Source of the DNA: a virus
Virus record (IMG/VR): IMGVR_UViG_3300035669_000001
Span: 1-64,000 of that record
Length of the DNA: 64,000 bases
Strand: one strand, 5' to 3'
Below, in pieces: positions 7,064 through 46,258 of the stretch (position 1 is the first letter of the stretch; each line of letters opens with the position of its first letter). The notes beneath the pieces were generated by a model, which was not told the DNA's origin, did no database searches, and saw nothing but the letters and a program-made list of their open reading frames with translations. The position numbers and the translations under genes were made by a program.

Positions 7064-7395
7064 GCTTCCTCAAGACACCGATCAACGCCTGGGACGTCCC
7101 GGACGCCTCGGAGAACATCAACCGCGGTGCGCTGCACGTCCGGACGCTGGGGTACGAGGCCGAGCAGTTCACGGTCATGCGGTTCGCCAACATGGCCACC
7201 CTGCTGGCGAAGCTGGTGGGCGACAACGCTCCCAAGGACGGGATGGTCGCCTTCGTCGACGACGTCGACCAGCTGCTGTTGTACGCCGGCGGTGCCTGGC
7301 ACCGCGTCTACCCCACGGAACGGATGATCTACTCGGGAACGACCACCCCGGCAGCCTCGCTGGGCACGGTCGGCGACCTCTACTACCAGTTCTGA
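7060..7395 (+). CDS. Small tail-fibre-associated protein
   Basis: 111 residues, GTG start with a four-base overlap. The N-terminal half contains VRTLGYEAEQFTVMRFANM; the C-terminal part (DGMVAFVDDVDQLLLYAGGAWHRV) is like the carbohydrate-facing or trimerisation modules in phage fibres that read GMVAYxxxxxxLYxYxGGAWxxV. I place it in the adsorption apparatus by this resemblance and by neighbours. Confidence 0.65.
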   Translation: MSFLKTPINAWDVPDASENINRGALHVRTLGYEAEQFTVMRFANMATLLAKLVGDNAPKDGMVAFVDDVDQLLLYAGGAWHRVYPTERMIYSGTTTPAASLGTVGDLYYQF

Positions 7396-7399
7396 GCCC

Positions 7400-8419
7400 A
7401 TGGGAAAGCATCTGGTCAAGGACGAGACCGGGGTATGGCGCGACGCCCTGCCCTACATCCGCACGGCTGCTGGCTGGGCCCGGGTCAAGATCGGGTACCG
7501 CAAGACCAGCCCCACCGTCTGGACGCAGTTCTTCGTCCTCGACCTGACCATCCCGGCGGTCCCGGTGGTGACCTCCATCACCAGGGACGGCGCGCGGCTG
7601 AAGATCACCATCACGGCCCCGGCGAGCACCGACGTCAAGAGCCTCCGGGTCAAGGTGGGCAAGCGGATCGCCACCAACCTGGAGGTGGACTCCGACTACA
7701 TCACCACCGCCGACGCCAACGACCCGGCCTGGAGCGAGTGGCAGGTCACCCCCAACCAGGTGCGGACGAAGTACTACCCGGTGGCCGGCACGCTGACCAA
7801 CGGCGCCACCTACTACGTGACCGCCTGGGCGCAGGACGCCTCCCGGAACTTCAGCCCGCCAGCGGTGGCGAGCTTCAAGTACACCGAGCCGGTGGTCCCG
7901 GTGCCGGTCAAGAAGACCGCCTACGTCACCACCGTGGACACCACCACCTTCCGGCGGGTGCAGAACACCTACTACCGCGCCGACAAGCTGATGCGCCTCG
8001 GCAGCGTGAACGAGCTGGTCGGCCTGGCCTACTACTCGAACAAGATCGCCGCCACCTTGAAGAACGCCAAGCGGCTCACCCTGGTCAAGATCGGCCTGCA
8101 GCGCACCAACACCGACTACGTCGGCGCCGGGCAGTTCCGGCTGCTCGCTCACACCCAGACCGGCTACTCGGCGGTGGACATCGACACCGGCGGCCGGGTG
8201 GTGTTCTCCGATCCGGTCTGGCACACCCTCAACCGGGGGCAGTCGGCCTCTGTCGTGATCCCCGAGGCGTGGTACCCGGCGATCCTCGCGGGCAAGGTCA
8301 AGGGCTTCGGGCTGTACTCCCAGGTCTCCACCGGGATCGACACCATCGACCCCTACGCGGTGACGTTCCACGGTTTCGGCACAACCTCGGGCCGGGTCTA
8401 TCTCGAGTACGAGGAGTAG
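7400..8419 (+). CDS. Minor tail protein with fibronectin type III-like domain
   Basis: 339 residues from an ATG four bases after the previous stop. Residues about 50-145 resemble a fibronectin type III fold: VPVVTSITRDGARLKITI, later GATYYVTAWAQDASRNFS, then FKYTEP. The remaining 190 residues are a beta-rich domain (TTFRRVQNTYYRADKLMRLG onwards). FN3 modules in phage tails act as spacers or weak sugar binders. No enzyme motif is visible, so adhesion is the best guess for the C-terminal domain. Confidence 0.7.
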   Translation: MGKHLVKDETGVWRDALPYIRTAAGWARVKIGYRKTSPTVWTQFFVLDLTIPAVPVVTSITRDGARLKITITAPASTDVKSLRVKVGKRIATNLEVDSDYITTADANDPAWSEWQVTPNQVRTKYYPVAGTLTNGATYYVTAWAQDASRNFSPPAVASFKYTEPVVPVPVKKTAYVTTVDTTTFRRVQNTYYRADKLMRLGSVNELVGLAYYSNKIAATLKNAKRLTLVKIGLQRTNTDYVGAGQFRLLAHTQTGYSAVDIDTGGRVVFSDPVWHTLNRGQSASVVIPEAWYPAILAGKVKGFGLYSQVSTGIDTIDPYAVTFHGFGTTSGRVYLEYEE

Positions 8420-26382: not shown

Positions 26383-26693
26383 TGACCGGTGTGACAGATG
26401 ACCGCAACGACCCGGGCCTTGCCAAGGTCGACCCACAGACTGGACTACAGGAGACCTACCTAGTGCTCTCTGACGAGGAACGTACCAAAGACCTTGTCAG
26501 GCCTGTACGCCGTTCCTACCTGCACCTGAAGTGCGGTGGGGTGACCACGATGGGGCGCAAACTGGCTGAGACCTACGCGAGAGACCCGAAGTTCTACGAC
26601 GGAACCTACTGTGCAACTTGTCGGTACCACTATCCAGTGGGTGAGAACGGTGAGTTCGTCTGGGAGGGAACAGACGAGAAGGTGGGAACCTAA
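26382..26693 (+). CDS. Small protein with zinc-binding Cys set
   Basis: 103 residues from ATG 26382. RPVRRSYLHLKCGGVTTMG, then ETYARDPKFYDGTYCATCRY and FVWEGTDEKVG form a conserved-looking block; LKCGG plus CATC can bind zinc. This block is familiar from actinophage small proteins, without known function. Its stop overlaps the stop of the convergent protease gene by four bases. Confidence 0.65.
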   Translation: MTGVTDDRNDPGLAKVDPQTGLQETYLVLSDEERTKDLVRPVRRSYLHLKCGGVTTMGRKLAETYARDPKFYDGTYCATCRYHYPVGENGEFVWEGTDEKVGT

Positions 26694-27511
26694 CTGAACC
26701 CCTTGGCCTTGGCCCATGTCTCCAGGGCCTTCACAGCCTTCCCGGCCTTGGTGTAGCGGGAGACGATCCCCTTGCGCCAGTCCTGTGTGGAGGCCCACAG
26801 GAGGACGTCAGGGTCGGGCACAGGGGCAGGAGCGGTGACAGGAACGAGCACAGTGGCGTCTCCCTGGCGGTTCAGCAGCATCTCCTTGGTGTCTGCCTCG
26901 CTCATGTAGAAGCGTCCTCTCAGACCCCAGGTCTCCCTCCAGTGGTTGGTGAAGCCCACACGTCCCCTGTTCGGGTCCCACTCGTCCACGCAGAGCTCGT
27001 GGCCACCCCTCTCGATGGAGGTGGGGGTGATCTTCACCAGCCCCTCTGGATCAGGGTCGTCGAAGGTGTCCATCCAGCCCATGCCCATGATGATGCGGTG
27101 CTTCTGGAGGGCTCCCATGAAGTCGTCCCAGGTGAAGATGTGGGAGTAGCCCGACAGCAGCCCCAGCTGCACCGCAGCCTTGCCTCCTGCTAGCCCTGAG
27201 GTGCCGGTGTCGACCTTGCCGATCTTGGTGTCGTACCAGCCGGGAAAGGGGTCGAGCTTGGTCGCCAATGAGTAGCCCGCTACTCCGTACTCGAAGGTGA
27301 AGATCCCGGGTGGAACGGTCATGAAGAAGGGATCCGAGCCCAGCACGTCCAGGATGGAGAAGAACACGCACGCGCCCACGCCGTCCTGGTCCAGGATGCC
27401 GATGTTGGACTCGTGCTTGACAGGGCCGTAGGTGAGCCCTCTAGGCGCTGTGAACGCGTACGCCCTGCTCTTGGGGTCGTGTTCCAGCCTGCGTCCGAGT
27501 GTTCCTGGCAT
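26690..27511 (-). CDS. Papain-like cysteine protease
   Basis: 273 residues on the minus strand; ATG with GAGGAGAG upstream. The catalytic set of a C1-type protease is in order: LDQDGVGACVFFSI (Q42, C48), GGHELCVDEWD (H171) and FTNHWRETWG (N189, with the following tryptophans). The C-terminal 30 residues are basic (WRKGIVSRYTKAGKAVKALE). No signal peptide is seen. Phage papain-like proteins are poorly known; roles could be processing of phage or host protein, or cell-wall peptide cleavage. It overlaps the HNH gene upstream and meets the plus-strand block tail to tail. Confidence 0.75.
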   Translation of the reverse strand: MPGTLGRRLEHDPKSRAYAFTAPRGLTYGPVKHESNIGILDQDGVGACVFFSILDVLGSDPFFMTVPPGIFTFEYGVAGYSLATKLDPFPGWYDTKIGKVDTGTSGLAGGKAAVQLGLLSGYSHIFTWDDFMGALQKHRIIMGMGWMDTFDDPDPEGLVKITPTSIERGGHELCVDEWDPNRGRVGFTNHWRETWGLRGRFYMSEADTKEMLLNRQGDATVLVPVTAPAPVPDPDVLLWASTQDWRKGIVSRYTKAGKAVKALETWAKAKGFS

Positions 27512-27952: not shown

Positions 27953-29950
27953 GTGAGTATCGACCAGTCCAACTACGCCCAGATGGTGGACGTCACCCAG
28001 GAGGGTGAGGTCAAGCAGCTGCCTGTCGGCGGGATGTTCGACGAGATGGGCGGGACCGGGCTCAAGCGCTCTGCGGGGGTCATCGACGAGGAGTTCATGC
28101 CCGCCCTCCGGGGCACCAAGGGCGTCGCGGTCTTCCGGGAGATGTCGCTCAACGACTACACCGTGGGCTCGTTGCTGTTCACGATCGAGATGCTGCTGCG
28201 CCAGATCGACTGGACGGTGACCGGGGACGACACCTCACCGGAGCAGTCAGAGGCTGTGCAGTTCGTGGAGGAGTGCATGGACGACATGTCCCACTCCTGG
28301 AACGACATGATCGCCGAGATCCTCTCGATGCTCACCTACGGGTGGGCCTGGCACGAAATCGTCTACAAGAAGCGGGTAGGGCCCTGGGAGACCGACCCCA
28401 AGAAGCGCTCCAAGTTCACCGATGGCCGGATCGGGTGGCGCAAGATGCCCATCCGGGCCCAGGAGACGCTGTTCCGGTGGATCTTCGACGTCGACGGCGG
28501 CATCAAGGGGCTCGTGCAGATCCCTCCCCCGGACTACACCCAGCGCACCTTGAGCATCGAGAAGGGCCTGCTGTTCCGCACCGGGATCCACAAGGGCAAC
28601 CCCGAGGGCCGGTCAATCCTTCGGAACGCGTACCGCCCGTGGTACTTCAAGAAGCGCCTGGAGGAGTTCGAGGCGATCGGGGTCGAGCGTGATCTTGCGG
28701 GCCTTCCATTCGCCAAGATCCCCAGCCGGCTGATGGACCCGAACGCCTCCCCTGCTGAGAAGCAGATGTACGCAGCGTTCAAGAAGCTCGTGGCCAACGT
28801 CCGGCGGGACGAGCACGAAGGGGTAGTGATTCCCAGCGACGTCGACGCCGAATCCAAGGCCCCCAAGTACGACTTCCAGCTCCTCGCCTCCGGGGGCAGC
28901 CGCACCTTCGACACCAACGCGCTGATCGGCCGCTACGAGCTGGCCATCCTCTCGACCGTTCTGGCCGACTTCCTCAAGCTGGGTCACGAGGGTCAGGGCT
29001 CCTACGCCATGCACGTGGACAAGACCGGCATCTTCCGGGCTGCTCTCAACACCATAGCCACTGCCATCGCCGACGTCTTCAACCGCTACGCGATCCCGAG
29101 GCTGTTCGCGGCCAACTCCTGGAAGCTGGACAAGCTCCCCAAGATCGAGCCCTCCAACGTCGACCCGCCCAACCTGGCCGAGCTGGGCCAGTTCATGACG
29201 TCCATGGCGGGCCTGGGGATGACCTTCTTCCCCGACCCCGACCTCGAGAAGTACCTGCGTGACACCGCGCACCTCCCCGCCCTCTCAGAGGAGCAGGAGG
29301 AGATGCACCGGATGATGAGCGAGCAGGCCAACGCGATGGAGTTCATGGGGGCCAAGCAGAAGGCCGAGATGGTGGGCCAGGGGATGACCCCCGAACAGGC
29401 CCAGATGCAGTCGGAGATGCCCACCCCGGAGATGCAGGCCCAGGATCCCCAGGCCCAGGCGACCAACCAGAAGATGCAGATGGACCAGGCGGCCTCTGAG
29501 CAGAAGATGGCCCAGGAGGCACAGTCCCACTCACTGCAGCAGGCCACCCAGGCCCAGGGGCTGGAGCAGGCCACCAAGGAGACCGACCTCAAGGCCAAGC
29601 AGGGCGAGGCCGAGCTGGCGACCGAGATGAAGCGGATGCAGATGGAGCTCGACGCCATGAAGGCCAAGATGGGCCTGGAGGCAGAGGGTTCCAAGCAGAC
29701 CCTGGACGCCAAGGCCAAGGGCTCCGCGCTCGACCTCAAGGCCAAGGAGGCGAGCACCAAGGCCGACCTGGACGCCAAGAGGCGGGGCAACGTGATCGAC
29801 CTGAAGGCCAAGCAGGCCCAGGCGAAGCTGCGTCCACAGCCGGCCGCAGGAAGGTCCAAGGGACGCGGAAGGGTGAGCAAGAACGGCAATCTCGGGCCTT
29901 CCAACGGCTGGGGCTGGCCGAACGATGACAACCCGTTCCGTAGGTCCTGA
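27953..29950 (+). CDS. Portal protein (DUF935/Mu gp29-like) with long coiled-coil tail
   Basis: 665 residues, GTG start with GAGAGGA upstream. The core resembles Mu-type portals: VFREMSLNDYTVGSLLFTIE with MLLRQIDWTV near residues 55-85, a PIRAQETLFRWIFD segment, LLFRTGIHKGNPEGRSILRN, then EGVVIPSD and the long helix region. The portal ring is the vertex through which DNA enters and leaves. Residues about 445-640 are unusual: an Ala/Gln/Lys/Glu-rich coiled coil with imperfect repeats of the type LDLKAK/LDAKAK, and a basic end. It overlaps the next gene by one base. Confidence 0.9.
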   Translation: MSIDQSNYAQMVDVTQEGEVKQLPVGGMFDEMGGTGLKRSAGVIDEEFMPALRGTKGVAVFREMSLNDYTVGSLLFTIEMLLRQIDWTVTGDDTSPEQSEAVQFVEECMDDMSHSWNDMIAEILSMLTYGWAWHEIVYKKRVGPWETDPKKRSKFTDGRIGWRKMPIRAQETLFRWIFDVDGGIKGLVQIPPPDYTQRTLSIEKGLLFRTGIHKGNPEGRSILRNAYRPWYFKKRLEEFEAIGVERDLAGLPFAKIPSRLMDPNASPAEKQMYAAFKKLVANVRRDEHEGVVIPSDVDAESKAPKYDFQLLASGGSRTFDTNALIGRYELAILSTVLADFLKLGHEGQGSYAMHVDKTGIFRAALNTIATAIADVFNRYAIPRLFAANSWKLDKLPKIEPSNVDPPNLAELGQFMTSMAGLGMTFFPDPDLEKYLRDTAHLPALSEEQEEMHRMMSEQANAMEFMGAKQKAEMVGQGMTPEQAQMQSEMPTPEMQAQDPQAQATNQKMQMDQAASEQKMAQEAQSHSLQQATQAQGLEQATKETDLKAKQGEAELATEMKRMQMELDAMKAKMGLEAEGSKQTLDAKAKGSALDLKAKEASTKADLDAKRRGNVIDLKAKQAQAKLRPQPAAGRSKGRGRVSKNGNLGPSNGWGWPNDDNPFRRS

Positions 29951-32900
29951 TGCCCTGGGAGCGCACCGGCAGCGGCTACAAGACCGCCAAGGGCGGCTTC
30001 GTCCGTAATCCTGGTCAGTACGAGACCCTTAGGTCCAAGGGGATGTCCAAGAGACGTGCGGCCATGATCTCCAACTCGGTGGGCAAGTCCTACATCGGCG
30101 GCAAGTTCGTCCGGGCGGTGGACCTGACCGCCGAGCAGCGCAAGGTCCTGGGCGCAGGCAAGTACATCCTTTACCGCGGCCGCAACAAGCATGTCAGCAG
30201 AGGTCTTGAGAGGTTCGGACCGAACAACCAATGGAGGCAGTCTCGAGGAGCCAGCGGCAACCGGGGCACCCACCTCAACGAGTACAGGGCAGGGTGGAGC
30301 GCTACCAAGAACGTCGTCGCAGCGCCAGGGAACATGGGTGGTGCTCGCCGGAACAAGCAGGCGTACCGCCGGCTTGAGCAGGTCAACGGGGAGACCAACA
30401 CCGCTGCCTTCACCATCCGTACCGGGTCCAAGAGCACAGGCAAGTCCCACGTCTTCTACAACCGGAAGCGGATGCAGGAGGCCGAGAGTCATAAGCCCGG
30501 CTACCTGGCTGCCGTAGCTCCACACGAGCACGCCCATGCCGCTCCCAAGAGGTCCGGCTACCGGCTCTTCCAGGTCATCCAGGACCCTGCCACGCTGGGA
30601 CGCGAGGAGGCCAGGGCGGACTTCATCGCCTCAGGTGGGAAGCCGGTCAGGGGGCTGAAACGCACGTCCTTCTACGCCCACAACGCCCTGCGGGATCGAC
30701 AGGCGTCCAAGTACAAGTACGTGAAGGACGTCGGGGGCAAGCAGGGCGAGTTCGGTGCGTCCTACATCGCGCACACCCGGATGCTGCACAACAAGATCAG
30801 CAAGCCAAAGAAGGTGTCCAAGGCGTTCGGCGGGGTCAAGCGGGTGGCAGGAGCCTTCGCCAGGAAGCCCACAGCAGAGGCCGCGACCTTCGTGGACAAC
30901 CGGGTGGCTCAGGTTGCTCCCGGGATCACCAGGGCCGCTGCACCGCCGAAGAACGCCACCCAGTCACTGGTCAGCGACACGTTGGCCCACATCAACCGGG
31001 TCAAGGCCAGCCCTCCTGCTGCTGTCCCCTTCGCCCCGCACAAGCCCAAGACCATCGGGTCACTGGGGGCCGAGTGGCATCCCAAGCCACAGGCAGCCGC
31101 TGCGTCCGGGGCTCTCAGCTTCAAGGGCCACAAGGCGCCTCCGCTGACCAAGCCCGCACCAGCGAAGGCAAAGCCTGTTCAGGCACCCCCACCCGCTGCT
31201 CCTCGGCTCTCCCGTGTTGGTGCCCAGCGGAGCAGGTCGGGGTTCCAGGGGTTCACCCGGAGGCCCAGGGTTGTTCCTGCGGCCCCCAGTGCCCCTCCCA
31301 GGGCCGCTCCTGCAGTCACCAGGCCACCTAGTGCCCAGCCGGTGAGCACACCGACCCAGGCTCCGCGTGGCAACGGCCGGCGCAACGCCGGCATTGCAGC
31401 AGCCGGTGCAGGTGCGGTAGGTCTTACCGGAGCAGCGGTCTACTCGAGGAGGAAAAAGGTGGACGGCGTATCAAAGGCGTTCTCCCTACGCGGGGTCGCC
31501 CCGCGCCGGATGGGGGTCAACGTCGGCCAGCATGCCGGTGTGAACACACCACGCAGGGCCGGTGGCTTGTCGAGCATGTTCCAGCGGGGCAGTGCGCCGA
31601 AGCGCGCCATGCAGGCAGGCTCGCGGGAGATGGGTGTCGCTGCCAGCCCTCGTCGGCTGATGGGTCCAGGTGCCGCCCCAGGTGGCGGCATCAACCCCCG
31701 CGGGACTGGACGCCCTGCCAGTGCTGTGGGCCGTCCAGGACTGGCTGCTGCTCCCTCGGTGGCCGCCGGTGGTCCTGCCGCGGCCGCACCCAAGGTGGGA
31801 GGCATCGCCCGTCCGGTCGGTTCCGGCAGCAGGCCGGCGCCGAAGACCGGCGGGATGGCCCGGCCCTACGCCCCGGTGCCCAAGCCTCCGGTGACCACTC
31901 CCAAGCTGCCAGGGGCTGCTGCAGCGCGTCCGTACGCGCCTGTCCCTGTCGCTCCGAGGACCAGCAACCGGAACCGTAACCTTGCCCTGGGAGCAGGCGC
32001 TGTGGGTGCTGGCGGGCTCGGCATGGCCGGTGGTGCTCTCGGGCAGCGCAAGGTCCGCAAGTCCTTCTCGCCCAACCAGGCACGAGACGAAAGGGGCAGG
32101 TTCATGCCCATGGTGCAGATGCTCCAGGTCAACGACTTCGAGCAGACCGAGGACAACGTCGAGAAGAAGTTCGACCGGACCGACAAGATCATCGCCGGAC
32201 TGTCAGCAGTCGGGTTGGCCGGTGCCGGGGCTGCCGCCTACAAGGGCAACAAGGAGGCCAAGCGTCTGGGTGGCACGAAGGGACTCACCACCAAGGAGAA
32301 GATCTTCGGTGTCCGGGGCAAGGTTGCCCAGTGGGCCGGTACCGAGAAGCCCAAAGGTTGGAAGCCCTCGGACCGGGTGCACAAGTCTCTGCGGGTCACA
32401 GGGGCACGTCGGCTCCCGGGGTACAAGCCACATCCTGACGACGTGGAGGAAGCGGTCGCCCTGGCACGCAAGCAGTTCCCCGGTCGCAAGACGACCAAGA
32501 AGGAGGTCCTGGAGGAGCTTCAACCCTCTGGTGGTCTGGGTGGTGTAGCAGGTAGGGGCTTCGGGGCAAGGTCGAACCGCATCTCCAAGGGCTCTCCCGA
32601 CATGGCCGACGTCCACATCGAGGGTGTGCTGCGTCCGGTCGGCAAGATGCGTCGTGCCCGGGTGGAGAAGGGCATGGTCGTGGTGGGCAAGGCCGACGAG
32701 CCCCGCAAGCCCGGCCAGTGGAACGCCAACCAGCGTGCTGGCGCTGCTGGACTGGTGAGCACGTTGGCCGGTGGTGCCATTCCCCTCGGGGTAGGGATCG
32801 GCGCTGGCAGTGCTGCGCGCAAGGGCAAGCGGTTCAAGACCGGCGGCAACGCCTTCGTCCGCACCGGCGCGGAGGGCGGCGTCGGGGGTGCTGTGGGAGC

Positions 32901-33039
32901 AGGTGCGGGTATGTTGACCCGCAACCGTATGGCTACGAAGATCGGCGCAGCTCTCGGTGGAGGTGTCGGGACCGTCCACGGTGCCAATCGGTCGATCGCC
33001 AACTCACGTCGCAAGGGATACCTGAGGAGCGGTTTCTAG
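29950..33039 (+). CDS. 1029-residue basic polyprotein-like head protein with metallopeptidase motif
   Basis: Not recognised as a whole. The N-terminal domain (1-260) has APHEHAHAAP, an HExxH zinc motif (H192, E193, H196), then EEARAD (219-224), an order like that of gluzincin metallopeptidases. The rest is Pro/Ala/Arg/Lys-rich and low in complexity. It contains several Gly/Ala-rich hydrophobic stretches (480-498, 677-698, 747-763, 930-955, 978-1007) next to basic clusters. Short V/I-x-K-A/S/G motifs occur at V289, V507, V702, V810, I878 and V912. PDMADVHI (883-890) copies the start of the major capsid protein, and RDERGRF (712-718) recurs in other head proteins. It overlaps the portal gene by one base. 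I infer an internal head protein that may be cut into pieces. Confidence 0.7.
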   Translation: MPWERTGSGYKTAKGGFVRNPGQYETLRSKGMSKRRAAMISNSVGKSYIGGKFVRAVDLTAEQRKVLGAGKYILYRGRNKHVSRGLERFGPNNQWRQSRGASGNRGTHLNEYRAGWSATKNVVAAPGNMGGARRNKQAYRRLEQVNGETNTAAFTIRTGSKSTGKSHVFYNRKRMQEAESHKPGYLAAVAPHEHAHAAPKRSGYRLFQVIQDPATLGREEARADFIASGGKPVRGLKRTSFYAHNALRDRQASKYKYVKDVGGKQGEFGASYIAHTRMLHNKISKPKKVSKAFGGVKRVAGAFARKPTAEAATFVDNRVAQVAPGITRAAAPPKNATQSLVSDTLAHINRVKASPPAAVPFAPHKPKTIGSLGAEWHPKPQAAAASGALSFKGHKAPPLTKPAPAKAKPVQAPPPAAPRLSRVGAQRSRSGFQGFTRRPRVVPAAPSAPPRAAPAVTRPPSAQPVSTPTQAPRGNGRRNAGIAAAGAGAVGLTGAAVYSRRKKVDGVSKAFSLRGVAPRRMGVNVGQHAGVNTPRRAGGLSSMFQRGSAPKRAMQAGSREMGVAASPRRLMGPGAAPGGGINPRGTGRPASAVGRPGLAAAPSVAAGGPAAAAPKVGGIARPVGSGSRPAPKTGGMARPYAPVPKPPVTTPKLPGAAAARPYAPVPVAPRTSNRNRNLALGAGAVGAGGLGMAGGALGQRKVRKSFSPNQARDERGRFMPMVQMLQVNDFEQTEDNVEKKFDRTDKIIAGLSAVGLAGAGAAAYKGNKEAKRLGGTKGLTTKEKIFGVRGKVAQWAGTEKPKGWKPSDRVHKSLRVTGARRLPGYKPHPDDVEEAVALARKQFPGRKTTKKEVLEELQPSGGLGGVAGRGFGARSNRISKGSPDMADVHIEGVLRPVGKMRRARVEKGMVVVGKADEPRKPGQWNANQRAGAAGLVSTLAGGAIPLGVGIGAGSAARKGKRFKTGGNAFVRTGAEGGVGGAVGAGAGMLTRNRMATKIGAALGGGVGTVHGANRSIANSRRKGYLRSGF

Positions 33040-36554: not shown

Positions 36555-39338
36555 ATGGCGTTCAACGAACACTGCGCTCAGCGCGTCTACGACATCGTCT
36601 CCAAGATGGACGACGACGAGGCCCAGATGTTCGGCCTCCTGGTGGCCCACGACGTGTGGTCGCGTGACGTCCGGGCCAACGAGCGGTACCTCCGCCGGCT
36701 GAAGGACTCCTACGATGCCGAGGTCACGGACACGGTTGCCAAGGCCCTCCTCGAGCACCTGGACGAGGGCGGCGACCCTGAGGCTGCTGTGGCGGTCGCA
36801 GCGGCTGTGGCAGTCGCGAAGGACGACGACGACTGGTGGAAGTTCCAGGAGCGCGACAAGCAGGGTCGCTTCGGCCGGATGACCGGTGCCCAGTACCGGG
36901 CCAACCTGAAGGCGATCAAGGCCAGTGCCAAGCTGACCCAGGCTGAGCGCAAGGCGCAGCTGAAGGACGCCAGGTCCGGACGGGCCAACTACCTCAGCGG
37001 CTCGGGGCTCTACGTCGACGTCAAGGGAGGCGGTCAGGGAGTCGTCCGAGGTACCCAGAGGTTCGAGCAGGACTGGAACCGCCCACCGGACGAGGAGTCC
37101 AACGCCACCACCACCTTCAACCGGCTGAAGACCGGCGGCCAGACGGTGCAGGCCATCGGCGCCGCCACGGGCAGCCAGAAGCTAGCCATCGCGGGTGCGG
37201 TGGGCAACTACGCCGGTCAGTTCGGCCCGGAGGCCGAGAAGGTCGTCGGGCCCTCCATCCGGCGGACCGCCTACCGCTACCGGGGGACAGAGCGTCGTCC
37301 CGACGCTGCCTACGTGCAGATCGCCCAGGCCAACCTCAACGAGGTCAAGCGTGAGGGGCAGCCGGTCACTGCGGAGCAGAAAGCCTTCGCGGCCGAGACC
37401 GCGGCGATCCGGTACTTCCTCGGTGACGACCCGACGGCTGGCAAGCGGGGCGGTGGCTCACGCATCCCCAGTGCGAAGCTCTCCGGGCTGCACCGCGCCT
37501 CGGGCCGGATCACCCCCTCCGAGGGCATCATGATCGACGCCAACGGCAACATCGCCCACCAGGCGGTCGGCTACGGCGAGGACCACTACCTGCCCTTCAA
37601 CCTCAAGAACCTCTCCGCGCTCAAGGGCGGCTCCTACATCCGGACGCGCGAGAGCGGCGGTCTGACCACCGAGGACATCTACACCGGTCTGGTGGCCGGT
37701 GCGCGCTCGATGACGGTGGTGAGCAACTCCGGGGTCTTCACAGTGGACTACGCCGACGACCTGCGCGGAGGCAGGCGCTACAACGACAAGGCCCGGCAGA
37801 TGGTCAGCCGCTACGGCCAGACCCTGGACGCGATCCAGTCCGAGAAGGTGGCCAACCCGGAGCGCGGCCTGTCCTCGCGGGAGAGGGCGAAGATCCAGGT
37901 CGAGACCGAGCAGAAGATCAACGAGGACCCGATCCTGCGGTCCTTCCCCGACGACCAGAAGAAGTCCTGGGTCAAGGAGGCGATCCAGCGCGCCGAGTCC
38001 ACCACCCAGCTGTCCGAGGACGAGATCGCCGAGATCGACCGGAAGTCCAAGGAGCAGGGCAAGACCAAGTCCGACCAGGACATCTTGTTCCGTCAGCTGT
38101 ACGACGAGAAGATCGACGCGGTCAGCCGCCGGCACTACCGGTTGGACGGTGAGGGTTACGCCACCTCGATGGAGGCGCTGCGCGAGCAGTTCCCCTACTA
38201 CATCTCCAACATCAGCTACCGCACGGTCAAGAGCAACGACTCGCTGGCTCCCGACAGGTTCAACCGGGCCACCGACAAGGGCTACGTCAAGCCGCGGTTC
38301 AACCGGCCCGAGGGAGCCCAGTCGGGCTACTACGACGACACCATCACCGGCAGGGGCAAGACCAGCGCCGACCGGACGGACTACCAGAACTGGCGGGTCC
38401 GGGCCAAGCGCGGGGGAGATGTTGCGGCTGTTGCGGATGTTGCGGCAACCACGGGTGCCCCCAACAGCATGAAGGCCACCCAGGACAAGTTCGCGGCCGA
38501 GGCCAAGGAGAAGGCCGGCGACCCGTTGATGAACAACGCCATCATCTCCGACGCCGACTCCCTCAAGGCCACCCACGAGGCCTCCCGCGAGGCCAAGGCC
38601 GGTGGCATCGGGATGCAGTACGAGGGTGTGCACGAGTGGTTCAACGCCGACGACTCCGAGCGGCACGCCATCATGGCCGACCCGGCCCGCAGGGCGAAGC
38701 TCAAGGCCGACATCACCAAGGTGAAGCGGGACTACGCCAAGGAGTTCGGTTCCTCCGCGCCGCAGAACATCGAGTTTGCCGAGAAGAAGGCGAAGACCGC
38801 CATGATGAGCGACGAGGTCCTCGCGGCCGAGAAGGCCCCGGACACCCCGCTGCGGATCACCGACGAGCAGTTCGAGCAGGCGGCTCAGACCGACCACATC
38901 CGCAACCTCACCCAGCAGGAGGACCACGACCTGCAGGCGATCAGCCAGGACCTGCGTACCCAGCGCGCCCTCACGGCGAAGGCGGGCAACGACAAGGAGA
39001 CCACGTCGCTCACCCAGCAGATCACCGCGCTGGAGTACGCCCGCGCCCTCAAGGCCCGCACCACCGAGGTGCCGACCGACGTCTACGCCGAGATCGCCCA
39101 GCGCACCAGCCCGACCAAGGGCACGCTCACCCCGGTGCCGAAGGTCTCGTCGAGGGCCACGCTCACGTCCACCCAGGCCACTGAGCAGGTCCGCCGGCTG
39201 CACAACCAGCACCGGCTCGGGCTGATCGACGCCAACGAGTTCGAGCGGAGCGTCAGAGAGGTCATCGAGGACTCCGACATGGACGATAACGAGAAGCAGG
39301 TTGAGTACCGCCGTGCTACCGGGAACATCATGCGGTGA
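36555..39338 (+). CDS. 927-residue orphan head-module protein
   Basis: Not recognised. The N-terminal 110 residues are helical and carry TVAKALLEHLDEGG, an Ala/Val run and VAKDDDDWW followed by RDKQGRF, the element also found in two other head proteins. A folded middle (about 290-440: SGRITPSEGIMIDANGNIA, YGEDHYLPFNLKNL, SGVFTVDYADDLRGGRRY) is followed by long charged helices to the end. Only non-GC-rich hints of repeats; no Walker, HExxH or nuclease motif. It overlaps the MuF-type gene. An internal head or ejection protein is my best guess. Confidence 0.65.
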   Translation: MAFNEHCAQRVYDIVSKMDDDEAQMFGLLVAHDVWSRDVRANERYLRRLKDSYDAEVTDTVAKALLEHLDEGGDPEAAVAVAAAVAVAKDDDDWWKFQERDKQGRFGRMTGAQYRANLKAIKASAKLTQAERKAQLKDARSGRANYLSGSGLYVDVKGGGQGVVRGTQRFEQDWNRPPDEESNATTTFNRLKTGGQTVQAIGAATGSQKLAIAGAVGNYAGQFGPEAEKVVGPSIRRTAYRYRGTERRPDAAYVQIAQANLNEVKREGQPVTAEQKAFAAETAAIRYFLGDDPTAGKRGGGSRIPSAKLSGLHRASGRITPSEGIMIDANGNIAHQAVGYGEDHYLPFNLKNLSALKGGSYIRTRESGGLTTEDIYTGLVAGARSMTVVSNSGVFTVDYADDLRGGRRYNDKARQMVSRYGQTLDAIQSEKVANPERGLSSRERAKIQVETEQKINEDPILRSFPDDQKKSWVKEAIQRAESTTQLSEDEIAEIDRKSKEQGKTKSDQDILFRQLYDEKIDAVSRRHYRLDGEGYATSMEALREQFPYYISNISYRTVKSNDSLAPDRFNRATDKGYVKPRFNRPEGAQSGYYDDTITGRGKTSADRTDYQNWRVRAKRGGDVAAVADVAATTGAPNSMKATQDKFAAEAKEKAGDPLMNNAIISDADSLKATHEASREAKAGGIGMQYEGVHEWFNADDSERHAIMADPARRAKLKADITKVKRDYAKEFGSSAPQNIEFAEKKAKTAMMSDEVLAAEKAPDTPLRITDEQFEQAAQTDHIRNLTQQEDHDLQAISQDLRTQRALTAKAGNDKETTSLTQQITALEYARALKARTTEVPTDVYAEIAQRTSPTKGTLTPVPKVSSRATLTSTQATEQVRRLHNQHRLGLIDANEFERSVREVIEDSDMDDNEKQVEYRRATGNIMR

Positions 39339-41506
39339 GCGTCCCCGCCTTTGACCAGGAGCCACTGACGCCCCAGGAGGCCTACCAGGTCGACTACGTC
39401 ATCCGAGGGGCACAGGGGGGCTCCACGCTGGCTGTGGCGGCCGCACTGGGCGGGGCCTTCCTGGTGTACCGGGCGTACATGCGGAGACGCCTGCGGGAGC
39501 GCATGGGCTCGCTGGAGGGCACCACGCCCGAGGAGGTGATGCGCGAGACCAACCAGGTGTTCTCCACCTTCATGCCCACCTGGACGGCGATGGCCGCACC
39601 TGCTCTCTTGCAGGGCTACCTGTCCGGGGTGGCCGAGACGGAGTTCGGGCTGGACGAGGCGTTCCTGTCCGAGCTGGCCGATAACTACGCCTACTCCCTC
39701 GGGATGCACATCAACCAGGTCTCCGGCGACGCTCTCGTGCGCGGGTACGCGGCCCAGGTGAACCGGAAGGTCCCGGCCAAGGTCGCCCTGGGCAACGTGA
39801 TCGACGCGGTCGGGGTGACCAACTCCCACATGCGGACTCTGAACGTGATGCTCTCGGGCAAGGAGGACGCCAAGCTCAGCGAGACCCTGATCCCCTCGGT
39901 CAAGAAGGCCAGGGCACAGCGCCAGGTGATGGCCGCCCTCAACCAGCGCGCCGAGGTGATCGGCGACTCGGAGTCCTGGAACGCCAAGCAGCAGGGCAAG
40001 CAGATCGCCTGGTTGTACGCCCAGCGTCAGGGGTTCATCCCCTCCACCGCTACCCGGGAGTGGATCACCGCCGACGACGAGCGGGTCTGCCCGTCCTGCG
40101 GCCCGCTGCACAAGGTGGAGCTGCCGGTCGCCGAGCAGTTCGACATCCCGAACGTCGGCAAGTTCTGGTCCCCGCCCGTGCACCCGAGGTGCCGCTGCGA
40201 CGTGCGTCTCAAGGTCGGCCTGGGGCAGATCATCGCCAACAACGTGGTCTTCGGGCAGTTCGGCCGGCAGTGGCTCAAGCCCGACGACGTCGAGGAGGTC
40301 GGAAAGTCCGACAACCCCCACGACAACGACTGGGACACCCAGCCGAGACAGAAGACCGGCAGGTTCGGCGCGCGTCCTGAGGTTCGTTTCAAGGAGGCTG
40401 ACGTCGACCTCGATGCGGCCATCGCCCAGGCCACCCAGGCGGCGCAGATCGAGGACGCGGTACCCAAGGGTCCGATCCTCGGGCGAACGGTGCTGGGAAA
40501 GCCAGGGGTGATAGGCGAGACGACACTGGGCAAGCCTCCGGTGCTCGGCCAGGTCGTCCTCGGCAAGCCTCCTGTCCTCGGCGGGTCCAAGCTCGAGTCG
40601 CAGGGTCTGCAGGCCCAGCGGATGAAGTCTCACGCCCTGCAGGGCCGCAAGCTGGACAAGAGCAAGCTGGACCATGCCAGGCGGATGGCCCGGGCCGAGA
40701 TGGACGGCCGGATCATGGCACTGCCCGGGGACATCTCGGGCACGGTGGTGGACGACGAGGTCAAGGCACCCGAACCCGACTACTCCGACCTGGTGCCCAC
40801 TCCGGAACCCATGTTCGCCGTTGCCGATCCGCGTTGGGTTATTCGTGGACCAAACACCGACTCGCGTTCAATCAACGCTTCCAACGGTATGTACCGGCTG
40901 GACGGAGCCGAGGTGATAGGCGGGGTGGACAAGCTCCAGGCCAAGATCGAGGAGCTCGAGGCCGAAGCTGACGACGAGTACCTGGAGTACCTCTTTGACA
41001 GTAATGAGGCGAGCTACTTCGACAACGAAACCGGTTGGGAGAGTCCCGTCCCCGAGCACGTCTACGCCGCAGCTATGGAGTGGGTTCGGGCCCAGGAACA
41101 GACAAACATGGCGGTGGCGGACTTCACGGTCGAGCTTGATGCGTACGGGCCGCTGTGGACCAAGGACGGCACGCCGGTGGAGGGAGGGTACAACCATCCT
41201 GACTACGAGGCCCTCTACGAGAACGGGGATATTGAGTTTGACCTGGTTGACAGCCAGTACGTGCAGATCTCTGACATCGCGGACAAACTGAGTCTTTGGG
41301 AGCACGTCAGCGATACTCAGCCCCGGATCATCCAGCTGGACAAGGTCAGGGGCAACGACGTCGACTACGACCCTGACGGTGCTCCTTATGCCCAGGTGAG
41401 CGATAGCTACAAGATGGACGGGATGTCCACGGTCACCATCAACGGGAGGCACTATGTGACCGCCCGACTCGAACCGGCCTGGCTGGACGAAGGCGGGAGA
41501 ATGTAG
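39335..41506 (+). CDS. MuF-type minor head protein with long C-terminal extension
   Basis: 723 residues, GTG start. The MuF-type core ends with WITADDERVCPSCGPLHK (C252, C255) and SPPVHPRCRCDV (H283, C286, C288), the zinc-like signature of head-morphogenesis proteins. A hydrophobic span lies near residues 30-46. Then V322-G-K-S, RQKTGRF (338-344), three LGKPxVxG repeats (387-417) and, from about residue 490, an acidic domain with different codon habits (WVIRGPNTDSRSINASNG onwards). MuF proteins sit at the portal vertex inside the head, and some carry effector domains at the C terminus. Confidence 0.8.
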   Translation: MSVPAFDQEPLTPQEAYQVDYVIRGAQGGSTLAVAAALGGAFLVYRAYMRRRLRERMGSLEGTTPEEVMRETNQVFSTFMPTWTAMAAPALLQGYLSGVAETEFGLDEAFLSELADNYAYSLGMHINQVSGDALVRGYAAQVNRKVPAKVALGNVIDAVGVTNSHMRTLNVMLSGKEDAKLSETLIPSVKKARAQRQVMAALNQRAEVIGDSESWNAKQQGKQIAWLYAQRQGFIPSTATREWITADDERVCPSCGPLHKVELPVAEQFDIPNVGKFWSPPVHPRCRCDVRLKVGLGQIIANNVVFGQFGRQWLKPDDVEEVGKSDNPHDNDWDTQPRQKTGRFGARPEVRFKEADVDLDAAIAQATQAAQIEDAVPKGPILGRTVLGKPGVIGETTLGKPPVLGQVVLGKPPVLGGSKLESQGLQAQRMKSHALQGRKLDKSKLDHARRMARAEMDGRIMALPGDISGTVVDDEVKAPEPDYSDLVPTPEPMFAVADPRWVIRGPNTDSRSINASNGMYRLDGAEVIGGVDKLQAKIEELEAEADDEYLEYLFDSNEASYFDNETGWESPVPEHVYAAAMEWVRAQEQTNMAVADFTVELDAYGPLWTKDGTPVEGGYNHPDYEALYENGDIEFDLVDSQYVQISDIADKLSLWEHVSDTQPRIIQLDKVRGNDVDYDPDGAPYAQVSDSYKMDGMSTVTINGRHYVTARLEPAWLDEGGRM

Positions 41507-41508
41507 CC

Positions 41509-42360
41509 ATGGACGTACTGGAGGCTCTGCGCGCGCACGGTGAGGCTGGGGCGGCTGTCGTGGACCTGCTCTACGGCGAGGGTGCGGAGGAGGTTGTCAA
41601 GGCTCTCAGTGAGGACCGCAAGCGGAAGATCGCCACCGCCTCCAACGTGGTCGGGATCGGCGCTGGGCTGGCTGCCATCCCCGGTGCCACCCGCGACTTC
41701 CGGAACGCCGCGAAGACTGCCAGGGGTGCCAGTGACAAACCGGTCGGCGTCCTGAAGCCGGTGGGCAAGATCCGGGGCAACATCCGCGGTGGTCTCAAGG
41801 CCACCAAGAACTTCCTGGGCAAGCCGAAGACCGCGCTGGCACTGGCCGGCGGCGGTCTGGCCCTGCAGGCGGGGAACGTCGGCGGGGACTTCGTGACCAA
41901 CCAGGTCCTCCGCGCCGACCAGAAGAAGTCGGGCGTCTCCAAGGGGCTGACCGACATCGAGTGGACCGGCGAGTTCTCCAAGATGGACACCGACAAGCGC
42001 CAGGTGTTCGGGTGGGCCTCGGTCACCGCGGTCGACGGCGTCCCGGTGACCGACCTCCAGGAGGACGAGATCGACCTCGAGGAGATCGAGAAGGCCGCCT
42101 ACTCCTACGTGGCCAAGTCCCGGGTCGGCGGCAACATGCACAAGAAGACCATCGACGGCTCCCCGGTGCACGTCTCCGACATGATCGAGTCCTTCGTGGT
42201 CACCCCGGAGAAGAAGCAGACGCTGCACCTGGGCAACGACACCCCGGAAGGGTGGTGGGTCGGCTTCCAGGTCAACGACGACGAGACCTGGGACGCGGCC
42301 AAGAACGGCGAGCTGGTGGGCTTCTCGATCCACGGAACGGGAAAGAGGCGTGACGGCTGA
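41509..42360 (+). CDS. XkdF-like head maturation protease
   Basis: 283 residues. The C-terminal 130 residues match the XkdF family: FSKMDTDKRQVFGWASV, EEIEKAAYSYVAKS, NMHKKTIDGS and VSDMIESFVVTPEK, ending GWWVGFQVNDDETW and GELVGFSIHG. XkdF-like proteins are predicted serine-type prohead proteases of Bacillus PBSX and many actinophages. The N-terminal 150 residues contain Gly/Ala hydrophobic stretches and V-x-K-A/G/S motifs (VVKAL, VSKGL), so the protease may cut itself. It lies directly before the basic protein and scaffold genes, the usual position. Confidence 0.75.
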   Translation: MDVLEALRAHGEAGAAVVDLLYGEGAEEVVKALSEDRKRKIATASNVVGIGAGLAAIPGATRDFRNAAKTARGASDKPVGVLKPVGKIRGNIRGGLKATKNFLGKPKTALALAGGGLALQAGNVGGDFVTNQVLRADQKKSGVSKGLTDIEWTGEFSKMDTDKRQVFGWASVTAVDGVPVTDLQEDEIDLEEIEKAAYSYVAKSRVGGNMHKKTIDGSPVHVSDMIESFVVTPEKKQTLHLGNDTPEGWWVGFQVNDDETWDAAKNGELVGFSIHGTGKRRDG

Positions 42361-43589
42361 TGCCCATGGTGAAGCTGGTGTTCGTCCCGGAGACGACGAA
42401 CAAGCCGACCAGGCAGTCCCACAACATCGTGGCGCTGCCCAAGATCGAGCCTCTGCAGGGCAAGGGGAAGCCCCAGTTCGGGCGCAACGGCAAGCCGGTC
42501 AGCAACGTCTCCGATGCGCTGTTCGGGCGCGGGGGAGGCGTCCACACCGACGTGATCCGCAAGGCCCTGAGCAGGGAGCAGAAGGTGGGCGTGGGAGCCG
42601 CCGGCGTGGTAGGTGCCGGGCTGGCAGCAGGTTCGGTCGGACGAGCGGTCAGATACGGCGGCCAGGCGCGCAACGCCTTCCGGGTGGCCCAGGGTTTTAG
42701 TCATGGCCCCGCCCACCAGGCCGGGGCCACCCTCAAGCAGTACGGCGCACATCGCAGGAAGATGGCTCTCCGCAACGTGGGTGCGGCGACAGTGGCGGGC
42801 GGGCTCCTGGCTGGCGGTACGGCCGCCACGATGTCCAGTGCCAACGCAGCGAACCAGCGCCGCACCGGTGTGGCCAAGATGAGTGACGCGGAGCTTCGCC
42901 ACCGCAAGCGCGTCCAGGCCGGGATCAGCATCGGCACCTCCACCCTCGGTCTCTCCGCGCTGGGGTCAAAGGCCGGGGCCGGTGTGCTCCGCAAGCTCAA
43001 CAAGGCCCCGGGTGCGGCCCATCGGCTGGACAAGGCAACCACCAACCTGCTCACCAGCGGTGCAGGACTGGGTGGGGTCGGTGGGTTCAACTTCGCCTCG
43101 GTGCAGCGCCAGGAGGCCAGGAAGCGGACGCCGGTGGTAAAGGCTTACGACCCCGAGCGCAACCGGGAACGCAGGGCCAGGCAGGAGGCCAAGGTGGCAG
43201 GAGTCGTCGGAGGTGCAGCGTCCGGCGGTGCGCTAGCGGCTGGAGGTCTCGCAGCACGACGTGGGTTTCAACGCCGGGACGAGACCACCCGGATAGGTAG
43301 TCCGGTGGAGCTCGAACAGGAGGTTCTCCCCGGTGGCGGCAAGACCCGACTGGACCCGAGGGGGCGAGTTCACCACGGGCCTGCTCGGAAGTTCCGGACG
43401 GCGAACTTCGGGGAGAAGATGTCCTCGGCGACCAAGGTCAAAGGGCTCAAGGCCAGCCAGGTGAGGGCGGGCAAGGTCGGTGTCGGACTGGCCGCGCTGG
43501 GCGTCGGCGGGCTGGTTGCGTCGGACCGGATCGCCTCCTACTCCCGGGGGAAGGGGCGGAAGTACTCACCCCGGTTCAAGCGGGACTGA
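42360..43589 (+). CDS. 409-residue basic, glycine-rich head protein
   Basis: ATG overlaps the protease stop by one base. Strongly basic, with six Gly/Ala-rich hydrophobic stretches (about 76-96, 139-160, 186-209, 232-246, 279-300, 372-392), each next to Arg/Lys clusters, and motifs I66-R-K-A and V259-V-K-A. No enzyme motif. The build is the same as the C-terminal two thirds of the 29950 protein. An internal, possibly processed, head protein is inferred; it might also bind DNA. Confidence 0.65.
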   Translation: MPMVKLVFVPETTNKPTRQSHNIVALPKIEPLQGKGKPQFGRNGKPVSNVSDALFGRGGGVHTDVIRKALSREQKVGVGAAGVVGAGLAAGSVGRAVRYGGQARNAFRVAQGFSHGPAHQAGATLKQYGAHRRKMALRNVGAATVAGGLLAGGTAATMSSANAANQRRTGVAKMSDAELRHRKRVQAGISIGTSTLGLSALGSKAGAGVLRKLNKAPGAAHRLDKATTNLLTSGAGLGGVGGFNFASVQRQEARKRTPVVKAYDPERNRERRARQEAKVAGVVGGAASGGALAAGGLAARRGFQRRDETTRIGSPVELEQEVLPGGGKTRLDPRGRVHHGPARKFRTANFGEKMSSATKVKGLKASQVRAGKVGVGLAALGVGGLVASDRIASYSRGKGRKYSPRFKRD

Positions 43590-43627
43590 ACGGGTTGCAG
43601 GCTAAGACAGAATTGTGGGTGAGGAAC

Positions 43628-44806
43628 ATGCCAAAGCTCAGTGATCTGAACATCGACGAGGTCAGCCTCGTGCGCAAGGGCGCCAACCAACATGCCCGGG
43701 TGGCAATCGCGAAGTCAGCAGGAGGAGAAGTGGACGAGGAGTACTTCGACCAGGAAGGAAACGCGGTCGACGTCGAGGAGCTCGAGCATGGCGACATCGT
43801 CTTCGACTCTGACGGTGAGGCCTACCAGTACGACGAGCCTGGTGACGATGACGACGAGGTCGAGAAGGCCCTGTACGTCGGTGGCCGCGAGGTCACCAGC
43901 CGGGTCGGACGTGCCGCTGGCAAGGCGTACATCGGAGCCGGCCGCAAGGCCAAGTCCGCCAACAAGTTCCGGATCCAGACAGGTGCGATTGCCGGGCAGG
44001 CAGCCCGCAGGGGCGCCAAGCGTGTATCCAGCGCTGCCGGTACGGGTGCCGGGTTCGTCGCCGGCAACGCCAAGCGTGGTGCAGGGGCAGTGGCGGGAGC
44101 CGCACGTAGCACCGGCACGGCAGCCGGGAACGCGGGCAACGCCATGGGCGGGGCGATCCGCGGGGCCGCGGCGCAGACCGAGGGCTTCCTGCGCACCGAG
44201 AACAACGCCTTCAACACCCGCGGCCGGATCGGCGCCCTCGGTGCCGGTGGTGTGCTCGCCGGTGCCGGTGGCGGCTACGCGGCAGGCAGCAACGGCCGGG
44301 TCCGCAAGAGCGCGTCCGACGACCTCCGGGAGGAGCTCTCCAAGGCACTCACCGACGACGACCGGGACGAGGTGATCGCGAAGGCCTTCGGGTACGTCGA
44401 ACAGGCCGAGCAGGTCGCCCAGGAGGCCTGGGAGATCGCCGAGGAGGAGCGGGAGAACCGCCGGGCTGCGGAGTTCTACGAGGTGGCCAAGTCCTACGAC
44501 ATGGTCCCGGTGGATACCGAGGACCTCGCGATCGCCATGATGCACATGGCCGACCTGCTGCCCGAGGAGGACGTGCAGGTCATCGCCAAGGCCCTGGGCT
44601 TTGCGGCCGACGTGGCCGACGAGCTCTACGAGGAGCAGGGCAACGTGGGCGGTGGCGACAACTCCGACGTGATGGAGCAGCTGCAGACGTTCGCGCGCAA
44701 CCGGGTCGCCAAGTCCGGTGAGGGCTCAGCCGAGCAGTACCTGGTCGATGCCCTCAACCATGACCCAGCGGTGTACGACCAGTACCTCGCGGACAACAGC
44801 CGCTGA
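43628..44806 (+). CDS. Scaffold-like capsid assembly protein
   Basis: 392 residues from ATG 43628, with GTGAGGAAC in front; a TTG 33 bases upstream is the alternative. It begins LNIDEVSLVRKGANQHARVA, a phrase found where prohead protease and capsid genes meet. Then an acidic part, a Gly/Ala-rich basic stretch (95-220) and an acidic helical C-terminal half (LREELSKALTDDDRDEVIAK, QVAQEAWEIAEEERENRRAA) typical of scaffolds that precede decoration and capsid genes in actinophages. Nine V/I/L-x-K-A/S/G motifs occur, most in the helical half, consistent with destruction by the neighbouring protease. Confidence 0.7.
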   Translation: MPKLSDLNIDEVSLVRKGANQHARVAIAKSAGGEVDEEYFDQEGNAVDVEELEHGDIVFDSDGEAYQYDEPGDDDDEVEKALYVGGREVTSRVGRAAGKAYIGAGRKAKSANKFRIQTGAIAGQAARRGAKRVSSAAGTGAGFVAGNAKRGAGAVAGAARSTGTAAGNAGNAMGGAIRGAAAQTEGFLRTENNAFNTRGRIGALGAGGVLAGAGGGYAAGSNGRVRKSASDDLREELSKALTDDDRDEVIAKAFGYVEQAEQVAQEAWEIAEEERENRRAAEFYEVAKSYDMVPVDTEDLAIAMMHMADLLPEEDVQVIAKALGFAADVADELYEEQGNVGGGDNSDVMEQLQTFARNRVAKSGEGSAEQYLVDALNHDPAVYDQYLADNSR

Positions 44807-45262: not shown

Positions 45263-46258
45263 ATGCCTCGTCCTGACATGGCAGATGTCCATATCAACAC
45301 CCCGCTGACCAACGTCAGCATCGCCTACATCCAGAACGCCTCCAACTTCATCGCCACCAAGGTCTTTCCCAAGCTCCCGGTGGACAAGAGGTCGGACCTG
45401 TACTGGAAGTACTCCAAGAGCGACTGGCGGCGTACCGACGTCCAGCGTCGTGCTCCCAGCACCGAGTCTCCGGGCACGGGCTGGAACACCTCGATGGACC
45501 AGTACTTCTGCCACGTCTACGCAGTGCACAAGGACATCGACGACCAGCTCCGGGCGAACGCGGACTCGGTCTTCCGGCTGGACAGCGATGCCACTGCCTT
45601 CGTGACGAACCAGATGCTCATCAAGCGCGACCTGGACTGGACCGCCTCGTTCTTCAAGACCGGGGTATGGGGCACGGACAAGGCGCTGCTGGCGACCGAT
45701 GCCAACCCGGAGAACATCCGCTGGGACCGGGCCACCTCGGACCCGATCGGTCTGTTCGGCACGCTGCAGCTCGCCTTCATCCAGCAGACGGGCTTCAAGG
45801 CCAACACCGCCGTGTGCGGTGCCAACGTCCTGAAGGCGCTGAAGAACCACCCGGCCATCATCGACCGGATCAAGTACACCCAGAAGGGCATCGTGACGAC
45901 CGACCTGATCGCCACCCTGCTCGACGTCGACCGGGTGTTCGCGGCCTACGCCACCTACTCCACCGGACCCACCATCCCTGATGCGGTGGCCCAGGACGCA
46001 GCGGCGACCAACACCTTCATCGCGGACCCCAACTCGGTGCTGTTGTGCTACTCCCCGGCCAGCCCGTCTCTGATGAGCCCGGCCGCTGGGTACACCTTCA
46101 CCTGGAAGGGCTACCTCGGAGGGAACGCGCAGGGGATCCGGATGACCCGGTTCCGCATGCCGGCCATCCGGTCGGACCGCATCGAGGCCGAGATGACCTA
46201 CGACATGCACGTGATCTCCCCGGACTGCGGTGTGTTCCTGACGAGTGTTGTCGGCTGA
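45263..46258 (+). CDS. Major capsid protein
   Basis: 331 residues, ATG after AGAGGAGAT. Starts PRPDMADVHINTPLTNVSIA, the opening of the HK97-fold capsid proteins of this phage type, and continues with FIATKVFPKLPVDKRSDLYW, KDIDDQLRANADS and a C-terminal RMPAIRSDRIEAEMTYDMHV. The protein has no N-terminal delta domain, so scaffolding is by the separate upstream gene. The short length fits this. The N-terminal PDMADVHI is copied inside the 29950 protein. Confidence 0.92.
   Translation: MPRPDMADVHINTPLTNVSIAYIQNASNFIATKVFPKLPVDKRSDLYWKYSKSDWRRTDVQRRAPSTESPGTGWNTSMDQYFCHVYAVHKDIDDQLRANADSVFRLDSDATAFVTNQMLIKRDLDWTASFFKTGVWGTDKALLATDANPENIRWDRATSDPIGLFGTLQLAFIQQTGFKANTAVCGANVLKALKNHPAIIDRIKYTQKGIVTTDLIATLLDVDRVFAAYATYSTGPTIPDAVAQDAAATNTFIADPNSVLLCYSPASPSLMSPAAGYTFTWKGYLGGNAQGIRMTRFRMPAIRSDRIEAEMTYDMHVISPDCGVFLTSVVG

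Follow-up and report, generated by a model that had tools for sequence, protein, structure and literature searches.

A Predicted Zincin-Like Metallopeptidase Domain in a Putative Leader-Tagged Head Polyprotein of an Uncultivated, Probably Siphovirus-Like Phage

The Portal-Coupled Reading Frame and Its Neighbours

The stretch of DNA analysed here (64,000 nucleotides, hereafter the window) is part of a 77.9 kb virus record, and its head gene cluster includes the following features, where residues refer to the product of ORF 29950–33039:

27953–29950, + strand: portal protein (Portal_Mu, phrog_113), upstream of ORF 29950–33039 and overlapping it
29950–33039, + strand: whole ORF, i.e., leader, metallopeptidase module, and basic Pro/Ala-rich and Gly/Ala-hydrophobic modules
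29950–30087, + strand: N-terminal leader, residues 1–46, with DUF7218 (PF23855) at 18–47 (Pfam E 7.7e-8, above cut-off)
30088–30822, + strand: predicted metallopeptidase (zincin-like) module, residues 47–291, 27.3 kDa if both ends are cut
30523–30537, + strand: HEHAH, residues 192–196, predicted zinc ligands H192 and H196, predicted general base E193
30604–30621, + strand: EEARAD, residues 219–224, predicted third ligand (E220 favoured, E219 possible)
31387–31446, + strand: Gly/Ala hydrophobic stretch, residues 480–499
31978–32031, + strand: Gly/Ala hydrophobic stretch, residues 677–694
32083–32103, + strand: RDERGRF, a short motif common to head proteins of these phages
32185–32241, + strand: Gly/Ala hydrophobic stretch, residues 746–764
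32737–32817, + strand: Gly/Ala hydrophobic stretch, residues 930–956
39335–41506, + strand: MuF-like head morphogenesis protein (phrog head morphogenesis families, E down to 4e-11; PF04233 just below its cut-off)
41509–42360, + strand: Peptidase_S78_2/XkdF-like head maturation protease (PF14550, E 4.2e-19; phrog head maturation proteases)
45263–46258, + strand: major capsid protein (phrog_1005, E 1.6e-82)

A preliminary description of the window had proposed that ORF 29950–33039 is coupled to the portal gene, and its ATG does overlap the portal stop codon TGA (TGATG). Translation likewise bears out the 1029 residues of that description, with HEHAH at 192–196 and EEARAD at 219–224, for a product of 107 kDa with a pI of 11.7 and devoid of Cys. 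Its Pro/Ala/Arg/Lys-rich C-terminal part is also recovered (residues 280–1029: 41% Pro + Ala + Gly, net charge +94), but only four of the five hydrophobic stretches reported there exceed the threshold of a Kyte–Doolittle scan, the fifth remaining below it. A second contig carries an identical N-terminal part and the whole ORF unchanged. When residues 1–290 were shuffled, HExxH alone appeared in 1.5% of the shuffles, while HExxH followed by EEx(x)AD appeared in none of 20,000. Pfam and PHROGs recognised only DUF7218 plus low-complexity or hydrophobic modules in the chain, and no sequence homologue of the C-terminal 750 residues was found among the relatives; a Pfam match to MC1, with a score under its cut-off, was judged spurious.

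The tape-measure protein encoded among these neighbours (2040 aa, with peptidase and transglycosylase matches) points to a long-tailed phage, probably siphovirus-like. Since Arthrobacter and Microbacterium phages rank first among the cultured relatives of the portal (41–47% identity), an actinobacterial host can be guessed from sequence.

A Domain Family beside Mu-Type Portal Genes

Residues 47–291 represent a phage domain family that is absent from lists, of which we collected 15 non-identical copies, all beside Mu-type portal genes. Through relatives of the portal, we reached homologues of the HExxH part in locus L005 and in locus L010, the latter with a tandem pair; profile-guided scans with the isolated domain recovered seven contigs out of 2.9 million, the gene lying near a portal in all seven; further copies came from an HMM search of 80 more portal loci. 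The domain occurs in 5 of 25 well-flanked non-redundant portal loci, and its gene is therefore optional.

Other searches were negative. A profile search of the N-terminal part, as suggested in the preliminary description, identified the DUF7218 leader, but for residues 47–291 no Pfam, NCBIfam or PHROGs model reached cut-off or significance; HtpX, deuterolysin, Peptidase_M91, M76 and SprT-like, all of them HExxH families, were rejected as the family of the domain on profile matches below significance. Neither tblastn against 50,697 phage records, with P0001 and two homologues as queries, nor one scan of genome contigs returned a match, and the 1029-aa protein had no significant match to any solved structure or phage record searched.

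In spite of their divergence (22–55% identity to the first row of the alignment, n = 15), all 15 copies share ten residues (homologue L020 numbering): K3, S4, G82, H106, E107, H110, R119, R133, E134 and E135, while an Asp lies four residues past E135 in 12 of the 15. The conserved motifs of the family are RSxxR and REE[AG]. Free variation of the two His and the downstream Glu, which would have spoken against the gluzincin-like layout proposed earlier, is thus contradicted by invariance in 15/15 copies. In thermolysin, the ligand Glu lies four residues before an Asp, and because of this spacing E220 is favoured by analogy over E219 as the third zinc ligand.

In three of these phages, the metallopeptidase gene has a papain-like cysteine peptidase gene nearby: in the window at 26690–27511 (− strand; phrog_16701 “peptidase”, E 5.9e-28), in L010 at 3928–4587 and in L005 at 6930–7577, the latter two copies having been assigned by eye.

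Predicted Fold

An early AlphaFold2 model of window residues 45–290, based on 8 rows, had a pLDDT of 49.8, and fold searches with it gave no match. The model computed from the alignment of 15 rows, with homologue L020 as the query, reached a pLDDT of 81.5 and a pTM of 0.75. Its elements (L020 numbering) are a helix at 38–54, strands at 62–65, 74–81 and 88–95, and helices at 97–112 and 128–143, with an extra short helix (117–124) between the last two. HExxH falls within helix 97–112 and both invariant Glu fall within the following helix 128–143, so that the predicted model shows a minimal zincin topology. Concerning the comparison with metallopeptidases suggested in the preliminary description, the predicted topology gives no sign that H192, H196 and E219/E220 would fail to come together, and, along with the invariance of these residues, it lends support to the gluzincin-like layout.

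Foldseek returned no significant match for the 15-row model. In a VIA fold comparison, the first four of 37 rows were HExxH peptidases, including Pz peptidase A, a carboxypeptidase of B. subtilis (family M32) and oligoendopeptidase F, which were grouped as M3/M32, albeit at low Z scores (3.8–4.0, the latter being the maximum). Scores of at most 4.0 are no proof alone, but the presence of several HExxH peptidases among the 37 rows agrees with the motif in the modelled domain. Altogether, we regard residues 47–291 with good confidence as a predicted zincin-type peptidase.

It is unlikely, in our opinion, that the domain merely keeps a zincin fold and a metal site without protease activity, the protein then being a scaffold or a DNA-condensing core protein. 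The chain is indeed very basic (net +94 over residues 280–1029) and the fold evidence is silent on catalysis, yet inactive domains usually lose some catalytic or ligand residues, and here neither the general-base Glu nor any putative ligand varies among 15 copies as divergent as 22–55% identity. Even less probable is a virion-associated wall peptidase that would aid DNA entry through the cell envelope: a structural-cluster protein with a predicted metallopeptidase-like fold and membrane-like stretches would suit this role, but the gene belongs to the head cluster rather than to the tail, the tape-measure protein already has peptidase and transglycosylase matches, and no wall-binding domain was found in the 1029-aa protein with Pfam and PHROGs.

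The preliminary description states that no such phage protein had, to its author's knowledge, been described, which proves too strong. Zincin metallopeptidases are the commonest (hub) domain of phage polyvalent proteins, for which packaging and injection have been proposed (Iyer et al. 2017, PMC5512222), and their core consists of a three-stranded sheet, an N-terminal helix and, at the C-terminus, two helices that bear HExxH and Glu (PMC5512222). The 15-row model predicts the same core topology, preceding helix included, as in these proteins (PMC5512222; e.g., P1 DdrB and N4 virion RNAP). These, too, are large proteins of several parts encoded in virion gene clusters, and in some of them, as in L010, one chain holds two copies. 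In contrast, no library model reaches cut-off for the family of the window, which has its own conserved RSxxR and REE[AG], and the partners recognised in the chain are basic Pro/Ala-rich and Gly/Ala-hydrophobic modules instead of other enzymes. Hence, a zincin peptidase within a phage multi-part protein is of an already known kind, while the proposed processing anatomy is new.

A Motif That Brackets the Domain and Recurs in Head Proteins

The metallopeptidase module is bracketed by tetrapeptides of the type [VI]xK[SA], which occur at six places in the chain (arrows mark the predicted cut):

30079–30090, + strand: VGK↓S, residues 44–47, start of the metallopeptidase module (K and S in 15/15 copies)
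30814–30825, + strand: VSK↓A, residues 289–292, end of the metallopeptidase module (same bracketing in L040 and in both L010 copies)
31468–31479, + strand: VSK↓A, residues 507–510
32053–32064, + strand: VRK↓S, residues 702–705
32377–32388, + strand: VHK↓S, residues 810–813
32683–32694, + strand: VGK↓A, residues 912–915

In L040, the module begins at VQK↓S and ends at VRK↓S, whereas the L010 copies run from VSK↓S to VQK↓S (copy one) and from VQK↓S to VKK↓S (copy two). Together with the portal linkage, this bracketing supports the head-internal, processed chain of the preliminary description, the cutting itself being predicted from sequence.

In a census of all a-x-b-c residue triples across 434 non-redundant proteins of the relatives, VxKA, VxKS, IxKA and IxKS all ranked in the top 20. 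As a class, [VI]xK[SA] was observed 267 times against 125.8 expected, while LxK[SA], [VI]xK[TG], [VI]K[SA] and [VI]xxK[SA] were near or below expectation and [VI]xR[SA] reached 1.2-fold. The excess is concentrated downstream of the portals (200 vs. 76.3 expected, 2.6-fold, z 13.7) rather than upstream (59 vs. 47.1, 1.25-fold, z 2.0), these expectations coming from shuffles that only partly remove kinship among the sequences and the gene calls of the relatives being heuristic. As a positive control, T4 head-core proteins show the known gp21 motif [LI]xE[AGS] 3.9-fold; an excess of [VI]xK[SA] was found neither in these proteins nor in E. coli proteins. Within the present record, the motif is frequent from portal to capsid (22 vs. 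6.2 expected) and rare in the tail region (1 vs. 3.4), but it is also raised in the early region 61301–77900 (11 vs. 3.4 expected; e.g., 73682–74302, − strand), which counts against a head-processing reading. That a hydrophobic stretch precedes the motif as a rule is unconvincing (14% vs. 10%), and our literature search found no description of the motif or of a function for DUF7218.

As regards the enzyme that would cut at these sites, one candidate is the metallopeptidase itself, which might cleave at [VI]xK↓[SA] both the polyprotein that contains it and further head proteins; such a role has been proposed for polyvalent proteins of the DdrB type. The motif flanks the module in the fused versions, and autoprocessing by such domains has been proposed (PMC5512222). 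We nevertheless find this hypothesis unlikely, because the enrichment downstream of portals is just as strong in loci without the metallopeptidase (2.70-fold, vs. 2.35-fold with it), which disfavours this domain as the source of the motif, and because a separate S78_2 head protease is encoded. As the excess does not depend on the presence of the metallopeptidase, the S78/XkdF-type protease (S78_2), which has 26 matches among the relatives, appears from sequence to be the likelier cutter, and cleavage of the polyprotein by this enzyme is, in our view, somewhat probable.

HK97, whose gp4 is an S78-type protease, would provide a precedent, combining such a protease with K↓S at the cut as predicted for the phage of the window. 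The sequence of HK97 gp5 reads ...FNKSLG... (K103–S104), and its mature chain starts at Ser104 (PMC5701804). However, HK97 has Phe at P3 (FNK↓S) instead of Val/Ile, and it is the capsid delta domain that is cut, whereas here many accessory head proteins contain [VI]xK[SA], which does not mark a delta-domain border in the capsid protein.

Leaders and Possible Module Exchange

Three types of N-terminal leaders precede [VI]xK[SA] in head-cluster ORFs of the relatives, namely SAFGV[DE]HG, MPYKSxKQxxFMHAxHPxIA and the DUF7218 type. The first two recur on many different head-cluster proteins, usually with the motif right after them (e.g., L046 13648–14691, L051 7981–8241, L064 9078–9962 and L082 8914–9924). 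In L040, the DUF7218 leader opens a different, separate gene and is then followed by VNK↓A, on account of which it looks, from the sequences, as if modules were exchanged at [VI]xK↓[SA] borders.

Giant-phage ejection proteins carry propeptides and are processed by a prohead protease (SPN3US gp245, PMC10052503), as are the internal head proteins of T4 (by gp21), and module exchange at [VI]xK↓[SA] borders would be comparable in logic to the propeptides of T4 and giant phages (PMC10052503). In both groups, as predicted here, an N-terminal leader or propeptide precedes a short motif that places a charged residue before the cut and a small residue after it, and many head proteins carry this motif, as in the relatives of the window. 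Yet, their motif is [LI]xE or AxE, against [VI]xK↓[SA] here, where the candidate protease is S78_2/XkdF-like and the phage is probably siphovirus-like.

Alternatively, [VI]xK[SA] could be a docking or capsid-targeting motif that is no cut site, the protein then staying whole in the head; that the motif follows three kinds of leaders would fit such a role. We hold this for a rather weak contender, though a stronger one than self-processing, given that further copies of the motif lie inside the chains and between domains, as is typical of cut sites, and that it resembles the K↓S cut of HK97.

A Possible Route from Prohead to Host

We infer cutting at [VI]xK[SA] from the above, and the 1029-aa protein would then be a leader-tagged head polyprotein. 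It would be synthesised after the portal and probably be guided into the prohead by its DUF7218 leader, where the S78/XkdF-type protease would cut after the Lys of [VI]xK↓[SA] during maturation. This would release about seven basic pieces, of which one would be a gluzincin-type metallopeptidase (residues 47–291, 27 kDa), while several others would be very basic, some with a Gly/Ala membrane-like stretch. To this account as a whole, i.e., peptidase, processing and packaging jointly, we commit about half of our confidence.

The packaging and delivery steps are modelled on polyvalent proteins and internal head proteins. By this analogy, the basic pieces would sit with the DNA in the head, and it is likely that the metallopeptidase is packaged too. 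It would then most likely enter the host with the DNA and might cleave host or phage proteins there, an action in the host that we suggest tentatively. More speculative still, and on balance unlikely as a whole, is a picture in which an uncultivated, probably actinobacterial siphophage lineage would build its head interior from leader-tagged polyproteins of interchangeable modules, all cut at [VI]xK↓[SA] by an HK97-type protease, and would inject one of these modules, a metallopeptidase of a new family, into the host.

Should [VI]xK[SA] prove to be a cleavage code, proteins entering the head and their cut points would be readable from sequence alone, as with LxE for T4. If the account is true, extensive head-protein processing and probable protein ejection would also apply to siphophages that encode S78-type proteases, residues 47–291 would be a new candidate for a metallopeptidase that is injected, and the bacterium may receive an enzyme carried in the phage head. 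The account makes a concrete prediction, about seven fragments with Ser or Ala N-termini; cuts that leave S47, A292, A510, S705, S813 and A915 as new ends would yield pieces of 27.3, 22.0, 18.9, 11.9, 11.0 and 11.2 kDa, respectively.

Further Segments Shared among Head Proteins

Around residues 875–885 of the 1029-aa protein, the segment SPDMADVHIEG resembles the N-terminus of the capsid protein 45263–46258, MPRPDMADVHINTPL, and similar D[VL]H[VI] pieces are also present in a few other head proteins. The RDxxGRF-type motif is found in several head proteins of the window (32083–32103, 36555–39338 and 39335–41506), and RD..GRF was observed 14 times in the relatives against 0.1 expected. The product of 36555–39338 (927 aa) has no Pfam or PHROG match, its N-terminal 300 residues having 63 matches among the relatives. 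Finally, 42360–43589 and 43595–44806 encode head-cluster proteins of the same basic and Gly/Ala-hydrophobic build, with several [VI]xK[SA], and the product of the latter begins with the conserved segment LNIDEVSLVxKGANQHA.
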